A stretch of 38,972 bases of DNA. Source: Candidatus Planktophila sp. (GTDB taxonomy: Bacteria; Actinomycetota; Actinomycetes; Nanopelagicales; Nanopelagicaceae). The position numbers and the translations under genes are program-made. Under the pieces are notes generated by a model. It worked only from the letters and a program-made list of their open reading frames with translations, searched no databases and was not told where the DNA came from. Where the stretch lies: positions 1 through 38,972 of the forward strand of contig SHVG01000006.1 in the NCBI GenBank assembly GCA_009691145.1. The letters are read 5' to 3'. This document shows positions 5,635 through 30,074 of this stretch, piece after piece. Within the stretch, counting starts at the first letter, position 1. Each line of letters starts with the position of its first letter.

Positions 5635-7102
5635 TTCAAGTAAGCCCCTATCGGCAGTTTCATCAGTTATTGCTGCCCAGTGTGCTGATGCAACTGAGGG
5701 TGTTAACATCACTGGTATTTCTCAGTCCAGCAGTGATGTTATTTCAGGAGATCTCTTTATCGCACTACCAGGTGAAAAATTTCATGGTGCACAGTTTGCA
5801 TCCGATGCAATTGCCAGAGGCGCAGTCGCGGTCTTAACCGATTCGGCTGGGGCGGCGATGGTGACGGGAGTGCCTGTATTAGTGGCTGAAAACCCACGTC
5901 GAGCAGCCGGGGTTATTAGTGCATGGCTTTACGAAGAGCCAATGCGCGATCTTTATAGCATTGGCGTCACTGGCACAAATGGTAAAACAACGGTGACAAC
6001 TTTATTGCACCAGATTATGCAGGCTGCGGGTCGTGAGAGTGGACTCATCGGGACTGTAGAAACACGTATCGGCAGTGATGTGTTAACGAGCAAACGAACT
6101 ACACCGGAGAGCGCTGATTTACAGGCACTGTGTGCGGTTATGAGAGAGCGGCACATGCGCAACCTCATCATGGAGGTTTCCAGTCATGCAATTAGTTTGG
6201 AGCGAGTTCGTGGAAGTCACTTTGCAGTTGTTGGATTCACGAATCTATCTCAAGATCACTTAGATTTTCATAAGTCCATGGAAGAGTATTTTCAAGCTAA
6301 AGCCAGGTTATTCACCTTCGAATATGCTGATTTGGCAGTCATAAATATTGATGATGTTTATGGCGCTCGATTAGCTGTCCTGACTGAACTTCCAGTTCTC
6401 ACGCTTTCGCGCAACCACACTAAAGCCACTTGGCATTATTCATCCATTACAAGAGATTATGTTGGTGCTTCGGTTGCAATTCGCGGCAGCGGCGGCATTC
6501 TGATTGAGAGCAAAACAACTCTCCATGGCGGATTTAACTATGACAATCTCTTAATGGCCGTTGCAATTGCTGTTGAAAGTGGAGTTGATCCAATTGATAT
6601 TGCTGCCATCATGCCGAGATTAACTGGAGCCGCAGGTCGGCTGGAGGCAGTACATCTTGGACAGAGCTTTACTGCACTTGTCGATTATGCGCACTCACCC
6701 GATGCTGTCGCGCGGGTTTTAGAGACTGTACATGAGATTACGCAAGGAAATGTTATTGCCGTCTTAGGGTGTGGCGGGGACAGAGATACATCTAAGAGAT
6801 CCCTTATGGGAATCGCGCTACGCGATGGTGCCGATATTGCGATCTATACAAGTGATAATCCCCGAAGTGAAAAGCCAGAGGATATTCTGGTGCAAATGGT
6901 TTTAGATATAGATGTGCAGGCACCTAATGAGGTCATCACTGATCGTGCAGCGGCGATCAAAGCCGCAGTCAATCACGCCCAATCCGGCGATGTAGTCATA
7001 GTCCTGGGTAAAGGACATGAAAAAGGCCAAGAAATTGCAGGTGTAGTTCATAGCTTCGATGATCGTATAGAACTAGCCCGTGCGATTGAAGATAAGAAAT
7101 GA
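5615..7102 (+). CDS. murE: UDP-N-acetylmuramoyl-tripeptide synthetase MurE
   Basis: GVTGTNGKTTVTTLLHQI P-loop, DNPRSEKPEDI motif, Mur ligase C-domain. Start taken at ATG 5615 (MQRPLTNSSKPL), overlapping the end of ftsI; the 5489 start would overlap by about 146 nt. Confidence 0.94.
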   Translation: MQRPLTNSSKPLSAVSSVIAAQCADATEGVNITGISQSSSDVISGDLFIALPGEKFHGAQFASDAIARGAVAVLTDSAGAAMVTGVPVLVAENPRRAAGVISAWLYEEPMRDLYSIGVTGTNGKTTVTTLLHQIMQAAGRESGLIGTVETRIGSDVLTSKRTTPESADLQALCAVMRERHMRNLIMEVSSHAISLERVRGSHFAVVGFTNLSQDHLDFHKSMEEYFQAKARLFTFEYADLAVINIDDVYGARLAVLTELPVLTLSRNHTKATWHYSSITRDYVGASVAIRGSGGILIESKTTLHGGFNYDNLLMAVAIAVESGVDPIDIAAIMPRLTGAAGRLEAVHLGQSFTALVDYAHSPDAVARVLETVHEITQGNVIAVLGCGGDRDTSKRSLMGIALRDGADIAIYTSDNPRSEKPEDILVQMVLDIDVQAPNEVITDRAAAIKAAVNHAQSGDVVIVLGKGHEKGQEIAGVVHSFDDRIELARAIEDKK

Positions 7103-24129: not shown

Positions 24130-27100
24130 ATGTCATCCGATAACTTCGTTCATCTTCACGTTCACACCGAGTACTCGATGCTCGATGGTGCTGCGCGCGT
24201 TGGCGATTTAATGGCTGAAGTTGTAAGACAAGGTATGCCCGCTATTGCAATGACAGATCATGGAAATGTCTTTGGTGCATTTGATTTCTATAAGAGCGCA
24301 AAAAAAGCAGGCGTAAAACCAATCATCGGAATCGAAGCATATGTCGCACCTGAATCACGTCTTGAAAAAAAGCGGGTTAAGTGGGCCGATGGCGGCGAAG
24401 ATGATGTCTCTGGCGGCGGTGCTTATACGCACATGACGATCCTGGCCGAAAATAACGTGGGCCTCGGCAATTTATTTCGCCTCTCATCCCTTGCATCTCT
24501 TGAAGGTTATTACTACAAGCCACGTATGGATCGTGAACTTTTATCGAAGTACGCAGGCGGATTAATCGCAACCACTGGCTGTCCGGGTGGTGAGGTACAA
24601 ACACGTCTGCGTATGGGTGCCTACAAAGAGGCGCTTAAAGCGGCCAGTGATTATCGCGATATTTTCGGTGTAGGTAATTTTTATTTAGAGATTATGAATC
24701 ACGGAATCGACATTGAAGCCCGCGTAAAGGCCGATCTTCTAAAGCTTGGAAAAGAGTTAGCTCTACCTCTGCTTGCAACAAATGATCTGCACTACACATT
24801 GCAAGCAGATGCAGCCGCCCACGAGGCGCTGCTCTGTGTTCAATCAGGCTCTACATTGGCCGACCCTAAGCGTTTTAAATTTGATAACGATAGTTTCTAC
24901 GTAAAGAGCCCGGCCCAGATGCGCGAACTCTTTAAAGAGTTACCTGAAAGTTGCGACAACACCTTACTTATTGCCCAGCGCTGCAACGTCACTCTACGAG
25001 AGGGCGAAAACCTACTGCCACAGTTTGCGGTGCCAGCTGGCGAGACTGAGGATTCATGGCTTAAAAAAGAGGCTAAGCGGGGATTAATTGCACGCATGGG
25101 TTCGCGCATGACCCCCGAACACACAGAACGCCTTGCATATGAGCTTGGCGTGATGCAGACAATGGGCTTTCCCGGCTACTTCTTAGTCGTTGCAGATTTA
25201 GTTACACATGCAAAGAACGTTGGCATCCGTGTAGGGCCAGGTCGCGGTTCGGCCGCGGGTTCATTAGTTGCTTACGCTCTCGGCATTACCGGTCTTGATC
25301 CGCTTGCGCATGGATTGTTGTTCGAGCGATTCTTAAATCCAGAGCGTATCTCTATGCCCGATATCGATCTGGACTTCGACGAGCGCAGACGTGGCGAGAT
25401 GATCCGCTATGCAACAACAAAGTACGGTGAGGATCGCGTTGCTCAGATTATTACCTACGGAACAATTAAATCTAAGCAGGCTATTAAGGATGCAACACGG
25501 GTTTTAGGGTATCCATATGTAGTCGGTGAAAAACTTACTAAGGCGCTACCCCCATCTGTAATGGGCAAAGATATCTCACTGGGCGGAGTTTTTAATCCGA
25601 AGGATGATCGCTACGGAGAGGCAGGTGAGTTTCGCTCACTCTATGAATCAGATCCTGATTCAAGGCGTGTTGTGGATACTGCACGTGGGTTAGAGGGATT
25701 AAAACGGCAATGGGGTGTTCACGCCGCCGGTGTAATTCTTTCGCGCGAACCGCTGCTCGATGTAATCCCTATTCATCGTCGCGAGGCCGATGGCGCAATC
25801 ATTACTCAGTTCGATATGGGTGCATGCGAAGCTATCGGCCTTCTCAAGATGGATTTTCTAGGCCTTCGAAATCTCTCGGTATTAGATGATGCCTTGCTCA
25901 ACATTAAATCTAATCAGAGAATCGATGTTGTCTTAGAGGATCTAACACTCGATAATAAAAAGACATACGAGCTTTTATCGCGTGGAGATACATTGGGTGT
26001 TTTCCAGCTAGATGGTGGCCCCATGCGCGCACTGCTTCGGGCGATGTCTCCCGACTCATTTCAAGATATATCGGCGGTTATTGCGCTCTATCGCCCGGGA
26101 CCAATGGGTGAAAATGCGCACAATAACTATGCCGATCGTAAAAATGGACGCAAGCCCGTAGAGGCGATACATCCCGAACTCGTAGGTGCGCTCAAAGAGA
26201 TTCTTGGTGATACGTACGGCCTCATCGTGTATCAGGAGCAAGTAATGGCGATTGCACAAAAAGTTGCCGGCTTTTCACTAGGACGTGCAGATTTACTTCG
26301 CAAAGCCATGGGTAAGAAAGATAAGAAGATTCTGGATAAAGAGTACGTACCTTTTGAGGCTGGAATGAAGGCAAATGGTTACTCAACTGCGGCCATTAAA
26401 CGTTTGTGGGATGTCTTGATTCCCTTTTCAGATTATGCATTTAACCGCGCGCACTCTGCCGGTTATGGTGTTGTTTCGTATTGGACTGGATATTTAAAGG
26501 CTAACTACCCAACTGAGTACATGGCCGCACTATTGACTAGCGTTCGCGATGATAAAGATAAATCCGCGCTCTATTTAAGTGAGTGCCGCCGTATGGGAAT
26601 TAAAGTTCTCGAGCCAGATATCAATGAATCCGATGCTGAGTACACGCCTCGCGGAAACGATATTCGCTTTGGTCTAGCTGCCATCCGCAATGTCGGAGAG
26701 GGCGTAGTTGGATCGATTAAGGCCGCGCGCGAATCTAAGGGTCGCTTCACATCATTTGGCGATTTCTTGGCAAAGGTAGATGCGCAGGTCTGCAATAAAA
26801 AGACGATTGAATCTCTCATTAAAGCCGGCGCCTTTGGTTCGATGGGTGTGACGCGAAAAGGCTTGATGGCGATATATCTCGAGGCGATCGACTCGGTTAT
26901 TGAAGCTAAACGCGCCGAGGCGATAGGCCAGTTTGATTTATTTGGTGGAGAATCAATTAGTCATGTTGCATCCTTAGATTTAGAGATCCCGGAGGGTGAG
27001 TGGGATAAGGCGATGCTTCTTAGTTACGAGCGCGAAATGCTCGGGCTCTATGTCTCTGATCATCCACTTCTAGGTGTCGAGCACGTGCTTCGAGCAAATA

Positions 27101-27627
27101 CCGATATGACGATCAGCGAGCTCATCGATGATGGTGCTCAAAGCGAATCGATAGTCACTATCGGTGGATTAATAACCAGTGTCACCCGTAAGGTTTCTAG
27201 ACACGGTGCTTCATGGGCCGTTGTCACTGTCGAAGATCTTGAAGGATCACTCGAGGTTCTCTTCTTTTCAAATACATACAATCAATACGCGATGTCGCTG
27301 ACTGAAGATCGAATAGTGACGGTTCGGGGTCGAGTAGATCGACGTGACGATTCATTGCGCTTTACCGCCCTTGAAATGTCGATGCCCGATATCTCGATGG
27401 GGTCAACTGGTCCGCTAGTTATTTCGCTGCCGATGTCACAGTGCACGCCACCGATTGTTGATCGAATCAAGGAGATTTTGCGTTCACACCCTGGCAAACG
27501 CGAAGTTCATCTACAACTGCGCGATAATGGGGGCAGTACTTTTATGAAGATCGATGCTCTCATCACCGCATCACCTAGTTTGAGCGCAGATTTGAAATCA
27601 ATTCTGGGCCCTAACTGCCTGGTCTAG
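24130..27627 (+). CDS. dnaE: DNA polymerase III alpha subunit
   Basis: PHP domain FVHLHVHTEYSMLDGAARV, PGRGSAAGSLVAYALGIT, PDIDLDFDERRRGEMIRY, YRPGPMGENAHNNYADRKNGRK; 1165 aa. Confidence 0.97.
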   Translation: MSSDNFVHLHVHTEYSMLDGAARVGDLMAEVVRQGMPAIAMTDHGNVFGAFDFYKSAKKAGVKPIIGIEAYVAPESRLEKKRVKWADGGEDDVSGGGAYTHMTILAENNVGLGNLFRLSSLASLEGYYYKPRMDRELLSKYAGGLIATTGCPGGEVQTRLRMGAYKEALKAASDYRDIFGVGNFYLEIMNHGIDIEARVKADLLKLGKELALPLLATNDLHYTLQADAAAHEALLCVQSGSTLADPKRFKFDNDSFYVKSPAQMRELFKELPESCDNTLLIAQRCNVTLREGENLLPQFAVPAGETEDSWLKKEAKRGLIARMGSRMTPEHTERLAYELGVMQTMGFPGYFLVVADLVTHAKNVGIRVGPGRGSAAGSLVAYALGITGLDPLAHGLLFERFLNPERISMPDIDLDFDERRRGEMIRYATTKYGEDRVAQIITYGTIKSKQAIKDATRVLGYPYVVGEKLTKALPPSVMGKDISLGGVFNPKDDRYGEAGEFRSLYESDPDSRRVVDTARGLEGLKRQWGVHAAGVILSREPLLDVIPIHRREADGAIITQFDMGACEAIGLLKMDFLGLRNLSVLDDALLNIKSNQRIDVVLEDLTLDNKKTYELLSRGDTLGVFQLDGGPMRALLRAMSPDSFQDISAVIALYRPGPMGENAHNNYADRKNGRKPVEAIHPELVGALKEILGDTYGLIVYQEQVMAIAQKVAGFSLGRADLLRKAMGKKDKKILDKEYVPFEAGMKANGYSTAAIKRLWDVLIPFSDYAFNRAHSAGYGVVSYWTGYLKANYPTEYMAALLTSVRDDKDKSALYLSECRRMGIKVLEPDINESDAEYTPRGNDIRFGLAAIRNVGEGVVGSIKAARESKGRFTSFGDFLAKVDAQVCNKKTIESLIKAGAFGSMGVTRKGLMAIYLEAIDSVIEAKRAEAIGQFDLFGGESISHVASLDLEIPEGEWDKAMLLSYEREMLGLYVSDHPLLGVEHVLRANTDMTISELIDDGAQSESIVTIGGLITSVTRKVSRHGASWAVVTVEDLEGSLEVLFFSNTYNQYAMSLTEDRIVTVRGRVDRRDDSLRFTALEMSMPDISMGSTGPLVISLPMSQCTPPIVDRIKEILRSHPGKREVHLQLRDNGGSTFMKIDALITASPSLSADLKSILGPNCLV

Positions 27628-27669: not shown

Positions 27670-27681
27670 TATAATTACAGA
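27670..27681 (+). promoter_or_regulatory. Candidate -10 element with consensus TATAAT, leaderless configuration
   Basis: TATAAT at 27670-27675, then 6 nt (TACAGA), then GTG at 27682. -35 is not obvious. Confidence 0.55.
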
Positions 27682-27816
27682 GTGATTCGAACTGTAGATC
27701 TTCGTGGACGGGCCCTGACTAAGGCGGCCTATCAGAGCCAACTTCCACCTGGTCAGGCTTGCCACACAGGTAATGCAACGTGTTTTCATAAACCAGTTGA
27801 AATTAATGCAGATTAA
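27682..27816 (+). pseudogene. HisD N-terminus fused in frame to HisI C-terminus (putative deletion scar)
   Basis: Translation: VIRTVDLRGRALTKAAYQSQLPPGQACHTGNATCFHKPVEINAD*. First half resembles actinobacterial HisD N-termini (xIDLRGxAL...LP); second half carries the HisI zinc motif G-x-ACHTG-xxx-CF. Below the supplied ORF track length cutoff. Confidence 0.65.
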
Positions 27817-27852: not shown

Positions 27853-28017
27853 GTGAAAAACTCCTTAGCGGTTCTCATCAGTGCCGTCGTTATTCTTGTG
27901 GTGATCTTCACCGCCGGCCGAAAGTTCCAATTGTCTTCACGCTATGAGCGCAGCCCCAAAACGCTCACTCCCTGGAACTCTCTGGATAGAGGTATCGATC
28001 CAAGTGATGAAGTTTGA
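27853..28017 (+). pseudogene. 54-aa single-TM mini-ORF, possibly an internally deleted Trp-operon-associated membrane protein (Trp_oprn_chp/TIGR02234-like)
   Basis: Translation: VKNSLAVLISAVVILVVIFTAGRKFQLSSRYERSPKTLTPWNSLDRGIDPSDEV*. One TM followed directly by an RYER...W-xx-LDRGxDP-type tail; GAAGGGTG SD-like sequence upstream. Confidence 0.5.
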
Positions 28018-28040: not shown

Positions 28041-28538
28041 ATGAAAGCCTTGAATCTGAAGTATCAAGGGATTTTGACTTTAATTTCACGCCTTGTCGTC
28101 GGTGCAGTCCTGCTCATCGCCGGGGGATTAAAGGCCTTCGTTCCAGCCGAGGCGGCCAGTGCAGTTTCCGCTTATAAAATCCTGCCTACCCAGATCGCCC
28201 ACATTGTTGGCTACGCACTTCCATGGCTTGAGATCGCGATCGCTCTTCTCCTTATTATTGGTATCTCCATCCGCATGGCCGCCATTGTCGCCGGTGGCAT
28301 CATGATCCTGTTCATTGGCGCCATTGCCAGTGTCTGGGTGCGTGGCCTGCTGATTGACTGTGGATGCTTTGGCGGTGGTGGCGTTATTGATCTATCCAAG
28401 GCCGCGGCAGTTCACCGCACATATGCACTAGAAATCGCGCGCGATTGCGGATTGGCATTAATGTCGCTCTATCTATACTTTTTCCCTTACGGATTATTAT
28501 CAGTTGAAAAATCGGCGCTACCAAATGAGGAGATCTAA
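28041..28538 (+). CDS. MauE/DoxX-like membrane protein
   Basis: Four-TM protein with RLVVGAVLLIAGGLKAF and LLIDCGCFGGGG cysteine pair; adjacent to a DsbA-like gene. Confidence 0.85.
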   Translation: MKALNLKYQGILTLISRLVVGAVLLIAGGLKAFVPAEAASAVSAYKILPTQIAHIVGYALPWLEIAIALLLIIGISIRMAAIVAGGIMILFIGAIASVWVRGLLIDCGCFGGGGVIDLSKAAAVHRTYALEIARDCGLALMSLYLYFFPYGLLSVEKSALPNEEI

Positions 28539-29252
28539 ATGTCTAAGCAGGCAAAGGCAACTACCGGCGGAGATCACTTCACACGCTGGCTAGTCATTGG
28601 AATGGTTGCACTCGTCGTCGTTACCGGTGTCATTTTCTCCATTATGAGCTCGTCGACAAAAGCCAATGAATCATTTGCAGCTCTTAAAGGTTATAAGTTG
28701 GGCGATTCAGTTGCAGCCAGCGTTAATCCCGCTGCCGGCTTTGGCTTAACGTTGAATCCCGGTGCACCAGTAACAATCGATCTCTGGGAAGATCCACAGT
28801 GTCCAGTCTGTCGTACCTTTGAAACATCGATTGGTGCATACATCGACACCATGGTGCGTACGAAGAAAGCCACCGTTGTCTATCACCTTCTATCTTTCCT
28901 AGGACCAGAGTCCGTCCGTGCGGCAAATGCATTGATGTGCTCCGCCGATGAGGGCCACTACTTAGATTTTCATCAAGCGGTTTATATTGTTCAGCCAGCT
29001 TTGGAGAACTCCGGATTTTTCTCTAATGATAATTTAGTCAAGATTGGCGATCATATTGGGCTTAAATCTAAGACATTTACCGATTGCCTTACAAAGGGTT
29101 CAAAGCTTGAATTAGTAAAAGCCCATGCAGATTCAATGCCAACCTATAAAGTAAGCGGCACCCCGACTGTATTTATCAATGGCAAACTCTGGGAGCGCAC
29201 ATCAAATGGCTTTGATTTAAATGAGTTCCGTCTTGCTGTAGAGGCTGGCTAA
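28539..29252 (+). CDS. DsbA-family thioredoxin-like disulfide oxidoreductase, membrane anchored
   Basis: N-terminal TM, WEDPQCPVCRTFE (CxxC), YKVSGTPTVFINGKLW cis-Pro region. Confidence 0.93.
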   Translation: MSKQAKATTGGDHFTRWLVIGMVALVVVTGVIFSIMSSSTKANESFAALKGYKLGDSVAASVNPAAGFGLTLNPGAPVTIDLWEDPQCPVCRTFETSIGAYIDTMVRTKKATVVYHLLSFLGPESVRAANALMCSADEGHYLDFHQAVYIVQPALENSGFFSNDNLVKIGDHIGLKSKTFTDCLTKGSKLELVKAHADSMPTYKVSGTPTVFINGKLWERTSNGFDLNEFRLAVEAG

Positions 29253-29255
29253 CAC

Positions 29256-30074
29256 TTGTTACGTTCGATTCCATCGCCAACTTTGTCGGCGTTGGAAATC
29301 GGGCCGCTCACGATTCATATGTATGCCTTGTGCATCATCACAGGCATCGCCGTCGCCATTTGGCTTGGGGATAAACGCTTCAGAGCAGTTGCACCAAATG
29401 GAGCATCGGTAGTTTCAGAGGTTGCGATTACCGCGGTTCCATTTGGATTAATCGGTGGTCGGATTTATCACGTTATCTCATCACCCGATGCCTACTTTGG
29501 TAGCGGGGGAGATCCGCTAGATGCTTTGAAAATCTGGCAGGGCGGTCTGGGCATCTGGGGCGCTATCTCACTCGGAACAGTGGCTGCAGCCCTTCGCTAT
29601 CGCACTCTAGCCAAGCGAATCGATCTCCCAGGCTTTGCATACTTTATGGATGCCCTTGCACCAGGTGTTCTCTTTGCTCAGGCCATCGGTCGATTTGGAA
29701 ACTGGTTTAACATCGAACTCTTTGGTCGTCCACTCGATGCGCCATGGGCCTTATCAGTTCCATTACTCAGTCGCCCCAATGGATATACACAGTTCACAAC
29801 TTTTCACCCTACCTTCCTCTATGAGGCGATCTGGTCAACGGCTTTAGCCTTTCTATTAATCAGATTTGGTAAAAGATTTCATCCAGGTCAACTCTTTGCT
29901 CTCTATATCATTGGCTACTGCATCGGCCGTATCGGCATCGAATCGATTCGAATCGATGAAGCGCATCACATCTTCGGACAGCGCCTCAATGTCTTGGTCG
30001 GGATAGTGGTTGCTGTAGGCGCACTTATAGTCTTTCGCCGCCTCAATAAAGGCGGCCCCGAACTTCTCGGGTAG
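29256..30074 (+). CDS. lgt: Prolipoprotein diacylglyceryl transferase (TTG start)
   Basis: ITGIAVAIWLGDKR, GGRIYHVI, QGGLGIWGAISLG, AIGRFGNWFNIELFGRP, HPTFLYEAIW. Confidence 0.97.
   Translation: MLRSIPSPTLSALEIGPLTIHMYALCIITGIAVAIWLGDKRFRAVAPNGASVVSEVAITAVPFGLIGGRIYHVISSPDAYFGSGGDPLDALKIWQGGLGIWGAISLGTVAAALRYRTLAKRIDLPGFAYFMDALAPGVLFAQAIGRFGNWFNIELFGRPLDAPWALSVPLLSRPNGYTQFTTFHPTFLYEAIWSTALAFLLIRFGKRFHPGQLFALYIIGYCIGRIGIESIRIDEAHHIFGQRLNVLVGIVVAVGALIVFRRLNKGGPELLG

Follow-up and report, generated by a model that had tools for sequence, protein, structure and literature searches.

Between dnaE and lgt in the window, the 38,972-nucleotide stretch of DNA analyzed here, a GTG-initiated reading frame of 44 codons (27682-27816) begins 54 bp after the dnaE stop codon and translates as VIRTVDLRGRALTKAAYQSQLPPGQACHTGNATCFHKPVEINAD, followed by a stop. 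Its beginning resembles HisD and its end HisI, which raises the question of whether so short a frame is a gene with a function of its own, an accident of sequence, or what is left of a histidine operon. Our analysis favors the last answer. We estimate a probability of about 0.93 that this frame is the scar left when a deletion removed about 5.3 kb and joined the start of hisD to the end of hisI in frame, and that the deletion is recent, having followed the loss of the neighboring trp genes and accompanied losses of hisE, hisG, serA, and serB. The features on which this assignment rests are collected in Table 1.

Table 1. Features of the hisD'::'hisI locus and of comparable fusions (window coordinates unless a locus is named)
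Feature	Location	Strand	Evidence or remark
dnaE, intact upstream flank	24130..27627	+	
TATAAT, predicted -10 box of the former his operon, leaderless-type promoter	27670..27675	+	Ends exactly 6 nt before the GTG
hisD'::'hisI mini-ORF (deletion scar), 44 codons, in frame	27682..27816	+	GTG start; stop is the former hisI stop
Retained hisD 5' end, 22 codons and about 1 base	27682..27748	+	Alignment of ten relatives
Deletion junction	27748..27749	.	Position uncertain by 1-2 bases; about 5.3 kb missing
Retained hisI 3' end with ACHTGNATCFH motif	27749..27816	+	Alignments to relatives; Pfam PRA-CH fragment
orf54, short relative of the C-terminal part of Trp_oprn_chp	27853..28017	+	PF09534 fragment match below cut-off; synteny
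mauE/doxX-like, dsbA-like, and lgt, close-packed downstream flank	28041..30074	+	Pfam for the first two; order and spacing
trpC'::'trpA fusion, 48 codons	L117:9824-9970 (G139)		
serA head::tail ORF, 40 codons	L245:5131-5253 (G000 contig 2)		Between ilvC and leuB

Identity of the two halves

A search of 100 relatives returns the two halves of the mini-ORF as separate matches. Residues 1-24 match the start of hisD and residues ~23-43 the end of hisI, with lowest per-genome E-values of 1.5e-6 and 4.2e-7, respectively, both from genome G044. In ungapped local alignments to G118, the closest relative in the comparison, the HisD half scores 95 and the HisI half 85, against maxima of 41 and 50 in 1000 shuffles of each half. 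The HisD part shares 86% amino acid identity with residues 1-22 of G118 HisD. The fusion point falls at about base 67 of the mini-ORF, with residues 1-22 belonging to HisD, residues 24-44 to HisI, and residue 23 created at the junction. These results bear out a preliminary description, made from the sequence alone, in which a GTG frame at this position and on this strand had been read as the N-terminus of HisD followed by a piece of HisI.

Neither enzyme survives in the joined product. The Pfam PRA-CH (HisI) match at residues 23-36 covers only positions 61-74 of the 74 profile positions, so that the complete domain (PF01502) is absent; its score of 16.6 bits lies below the cut-off of 27 bits, as expected from a fragment. 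The HisD catalytic core (PF00815, about 410 profile positions) is also absent, only 22 N-terminal residues being left. The peptide encoded by the mini-ORF is without enzymatic function.

The ancestral block and its deletion

In relatives of the same genus (Candidatus Planktophila, judged by the nearest named records), an intact hisDCBHAFI block stands directly behind dnaE, upstream of lgt, and the end of hisI lies ~5.4 kb past the hisD start region. In G118, whose genes were named from their translations and the block order, the arrangement is hisD-hisC-hisB-hisH-hisA-hisF-hisI, between dnaE and orf54. A collection scan with the DnaE C-terminus places hisD after dnaE in 80 of 80 named relatives, a set that may omit the window's own record. 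The preliminary description had given hisD as the first and hisI as the last gene of a block between dnaE and lgt in many Actinobacteria, and the relatives have this order.

The remnants in the window are the outer ends of the segment that is missing, in their original order and strand, at the place where relatives carry the intact arrangement. The deleted portion comprises hisD from codon 23, hisC, hisB, hisH, hisA, hisF, and all of hisI except the last ~20 codons. On G118 coordinates, it amounts to 5,310 bp, or exactly 1,770 codons, a multiple of three. Repeats at the junction were sought as a cause, and none was found; the arms share at most 1-2 bases, which indicates that recombination between still-visible repeats did not produce the join. 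This small freshwater-type actinobacterium lost the operon in what looks like one clean deletion, although several nested ones may have had the same result. Of the single in-frame deletion that had been proposed, the in-frame join holds.

Loss of the remaining histidine genes and of serine synthesis

No HisD, HisI, or HisG match was obtained in the window's genome (G000), PF00815 included, and none of its other contigs carries DNA resembling the his block. The assembly is a draft of 58 contigs with a completeness of 79%, so this absence alone is weak; it is strengthened by cuts at the second his locus. In G118, this locus consists of pnuC, hisE, and hisG, followed by a convergent serB. In G000, it runs from the last part of contig 7 (about 54366-54908) into the first bases of contig 41 (contig 41:1-128; L153 and L154). 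There, hisE has been deleted together with ~174 codons at the start of hisG and ~10 at the end of pnuC, and 108 open codons of hisG are left. These 108 codons were considered as a working regulatory domain, given a HisG_C match of 96.8 bits, but the catalytic part and the start are gone, and they are best described as a remnant.

Beside the hisG remnant, serB is reduced to an in-frame head::tail ORF of 64 amino acids, in which VIRDNLALLMAPTPVTEQFTGLILLSGVDREGITEALFSVLA is joined to RAPYLDSVLYLLGIPREAIEED; no intact SerB was found in G000. Full-length SerA is likewise missing from this genome. Between ilvC and leuB, serA persists as VAKPVVLIAEELSPATLDALGPDFDVINCDGANRAVVMVD, in which about 34 codons of the N-terminus run in frame into 6 of the C-terminus; its start overlaps the ilvC stop, and its stop overlaps the leuB start (TAATG). 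In G000, two loci of histidine synthesis and two genes of serine synthesis are thus cut.

The overlap between contigs 7 and 41 is exactly 149 bases long, as are those of two other contig pairs in the assembly, a value that looks like the assembler's word length. In joined coordinates, the stretch shared by contigs 7 and 41 occupies 5852-6000 and stops at the serB junction, which lies between 5987 and 6000. Cells with intact serB in the same sample would be likely to produce a branch in the assembly graph at this point, and such a branch hints at intact serB alleles there. Elsewhere in the genus comparison, SerB-like stretches are crossed by four stop codons in G120 (contig 1:49359-50582) and G016 (contig 27:7340-8566). 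Several other genomes have the ACT part and the phosphatase part of SerB in separate frames, which may represent a split gene rather than decay.

An older loss of trp genes

In most relatives, about 1.5 kb, read as trpE, separates hisI from orf54, and trpC-trpB-trpA precedes mauE/doxX. In four genomes (G000, G118, G139, and G057), orf54 instead stands directly behind hisI; trpA is absent from all four, and trpD is below the cut-off in each. G139 is about 99% complete, so its trp loss is real. In it, the start of trpE survives as a short, decayed piece, and trpC and trpA form an in-frame fusion (trpC'::'trpA) of 48 codons, MSALDSIIEGVREDLAAR joined to LLLNIKDEESALMQVSALAKELAAGVRQGR, with a stop codon that overlaps the mauE/doxX start as ATGA. 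The trp genes between hisI and lgt were lost separately from his, and earlier, and the same head-to-tail architecture arose in a second genome and a second pathway. With synthesis of all three amino acids affected, external histidine, serine, and tryptophan are most likely needed by the organism of the window.

The 54-residue orf54 usually stands behind trpE in relatives and here adjoins the his scar. It resembles only the C-terminal end of Trp_oprn_chp and is kept in the genus even where the surrounding trp genes are gone.

Age of the losses and alternative explanations

Over 230 remnant codons, dN/dS between G000 and G118 is 0.08. Nonsynonymous differences of the remnants and of the intact G118 sequences, respectively, number 62 and 57 to G139 and 62 and 58.5 to G057; the serA segment in this comparison includes two codons past the junction, such that decay is slightly overstated. 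The his remnants contain no stops and no frameshift and show almost no excess nonsynonymous change. Since dS between G000 and G118 is near 1, long neutral decay is excluded. Either the losses are recent on the G000 branch or the remnants are still constrained, and a recent origin is the simpler explanation.

These observations bear directly on gradual pseudogene decay, in which several deletions over a long time would have produced the locus. The same region offers a precedent, in that the trp genes of G139 went piecemeal and are in part decayed. The undamaged state of the his remnants and a missing length divisible by three speak against such a course at the his locus, and we consider it improbable.

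An assembly or library chimera would place the junction in the work of the assembler or of amplification, with an intact his operon in the true genome. The draft state of the assembly invites this explanation, but the 1-2 bases that the arms have in common are too few for a word-based assembler to bridge, and a chimera would have to account for cuts at four loci of two pathways, both his loci among them. Moreover, the his block turns up on no other contig, and the flanks on both sides of the scar are closest to the same relatives. A chimera is, accordingly, very unlikely.

Equally slim is the chance that the fusion peptide has been selected as a small protein with its own function. The open frame, the low dN/dS, and the retention of two cysteines and one histidine of the HisI end would agree with such a role. 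However, no match spanning the joined junction was found in the other 134 genomes of the genus, among them 20 that returned no match of any kind. The low dN/dS is accounted for by descent from genes that were functional until a recent deletion, and other remnants, of different sequence, show a like pattern. The peptide itself is probably functionless. Finally, a chance ORF that resembles HisD and HisI by accident can be dismissed, as short ORFs are common in the window but both halves score far above 1000 shuffles and sit exactly where relatives have these gene ends.

That the mini-ORF is a deletion scar is near certain. The comparisons by which the preliminary description had proposed to judge this claim, namely dN/dS and occurrence across strains, gave the low ratio between G000 and G118 and a fusion found, among the genus genomes searched, only in G000. 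The similarity of both halves is significant, no intact his block lies elsewhere in the genome, and relatives hold no conserved identical mini-ORF, all of which sustain its reading.

Promoter, translation, and reading frame

Leaderless actinobacterial genes carry a TANNNT motif whose first T lies about 12 bp ahead of the start codon (PMC3160421), and the TATAAT box and GTG start of the mini-ORF follow this pattern. TANNNT occurs at exactly the same spacing in 119 of 140 relative loci, a count that includes some genomes under two names. As predicted from the motif and its spacing, the hisD promoter is retained and now precedes the mini-ORF and a tight downstream run of orf54, mauE/doxX, dsbA-like, and lgt, with successive gaps of 36, 23, 0, and 3 bp. 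The retained promoter may still start a leaderless transcript at the GTG, from which the 44 codons would be translated as a leader cistron. If kept for anything, these codons might carry transcription and translation into orf54-mauE-dsbA-lgt. Any role they have is likely that of a translated leader.

Four of the five same-strand coding junctions are in frame (his, serB, serA, and trpC::trpA of G139), the exception being pnuC to hisG. At a probability of one third each, at least four of five in frame would arise by chance with a probability of 0.045. The his junction was chosen because it is in frame; without it, three of four are in frame, and the probability is 0.11. Given these values, selection for in-frame joining to preserve operon coupling is treated as a hypothesis, for which the counts are suggestive only. 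At serA and trpC::trpA, the stop overlaps the next start, so a kept frame keeps translational coupling. The need for in-frame joining at his and serB is less clear.

A tentative and rather doubtful account of how these genes are lost is that this streamlined lineage sheds pathways along one favored route, a gene or operon being removed whole in a single event and mainly in-frame head-to-tail joins persisting, as their mini-ORFs keep translation coupled through what remains of the operon. On this view, the old his promoter would drive the hisD'::'hisI frame as a translated leader, one of a class of short-lived fusion mini-ORFs.

Relation to known systems

Pathway loss in free-living streamlined bacteria is mostly inferred from absence, and here several junctions can be read in one genome. 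The interest of the locus lies in this set of fresh, mostly in-frame junctions, of which the his scar is one of several in G000. Together with the relatives, they provide two layers of loss, an older and partly erased one for trp and a fresh one for his and ser, from which size, frame, junction sequence, and relative age are readable. Whether operon coupling decides which deletions survive becomes a test that can be counted, and the predicted requirements for histidine, serine, and tryptophan would aid cultivation.

Reducing Actinomycetaceae lose both histidine and tryptophan synthesis, with accompanying evolution of PriA (eLife 2017, PMC5404923), and the present case is alike in being a reducing actinobacterium that loses both. 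That study follows the retained PriA, whereas here hisA/priA was deleted with the block and the junctions are readable; neither remnants nor pseudogenes nor a his operon scar came up in a search of its text. Within the group to which Candidatus Planktophila belongs, acI, gene loss is likewise linked to dependence on external nutrients (PMC5574706, PMC5301498). The auxotrophies of acI are mainly for vitamins, with lysine and homoserine in acI-C (PMC5574706), and for the first four complete acI genomes, synthesis of all 20 amino acids was predicted (PMC5301498); loss of histidine and serine synthesis is unmentioned in the texts of both papers. In the open-licence papers searched, in-frame operon scars comparable to these were not found. 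Reducing genomes lose genes by deletion and are left with fragments and pseudogenes. The remnants described here differ from these usual ones in that both ends of a gene or operon, its head and its tail, remain undecayed and, in four cases, joined in frame, and in that the his promoter is kept.
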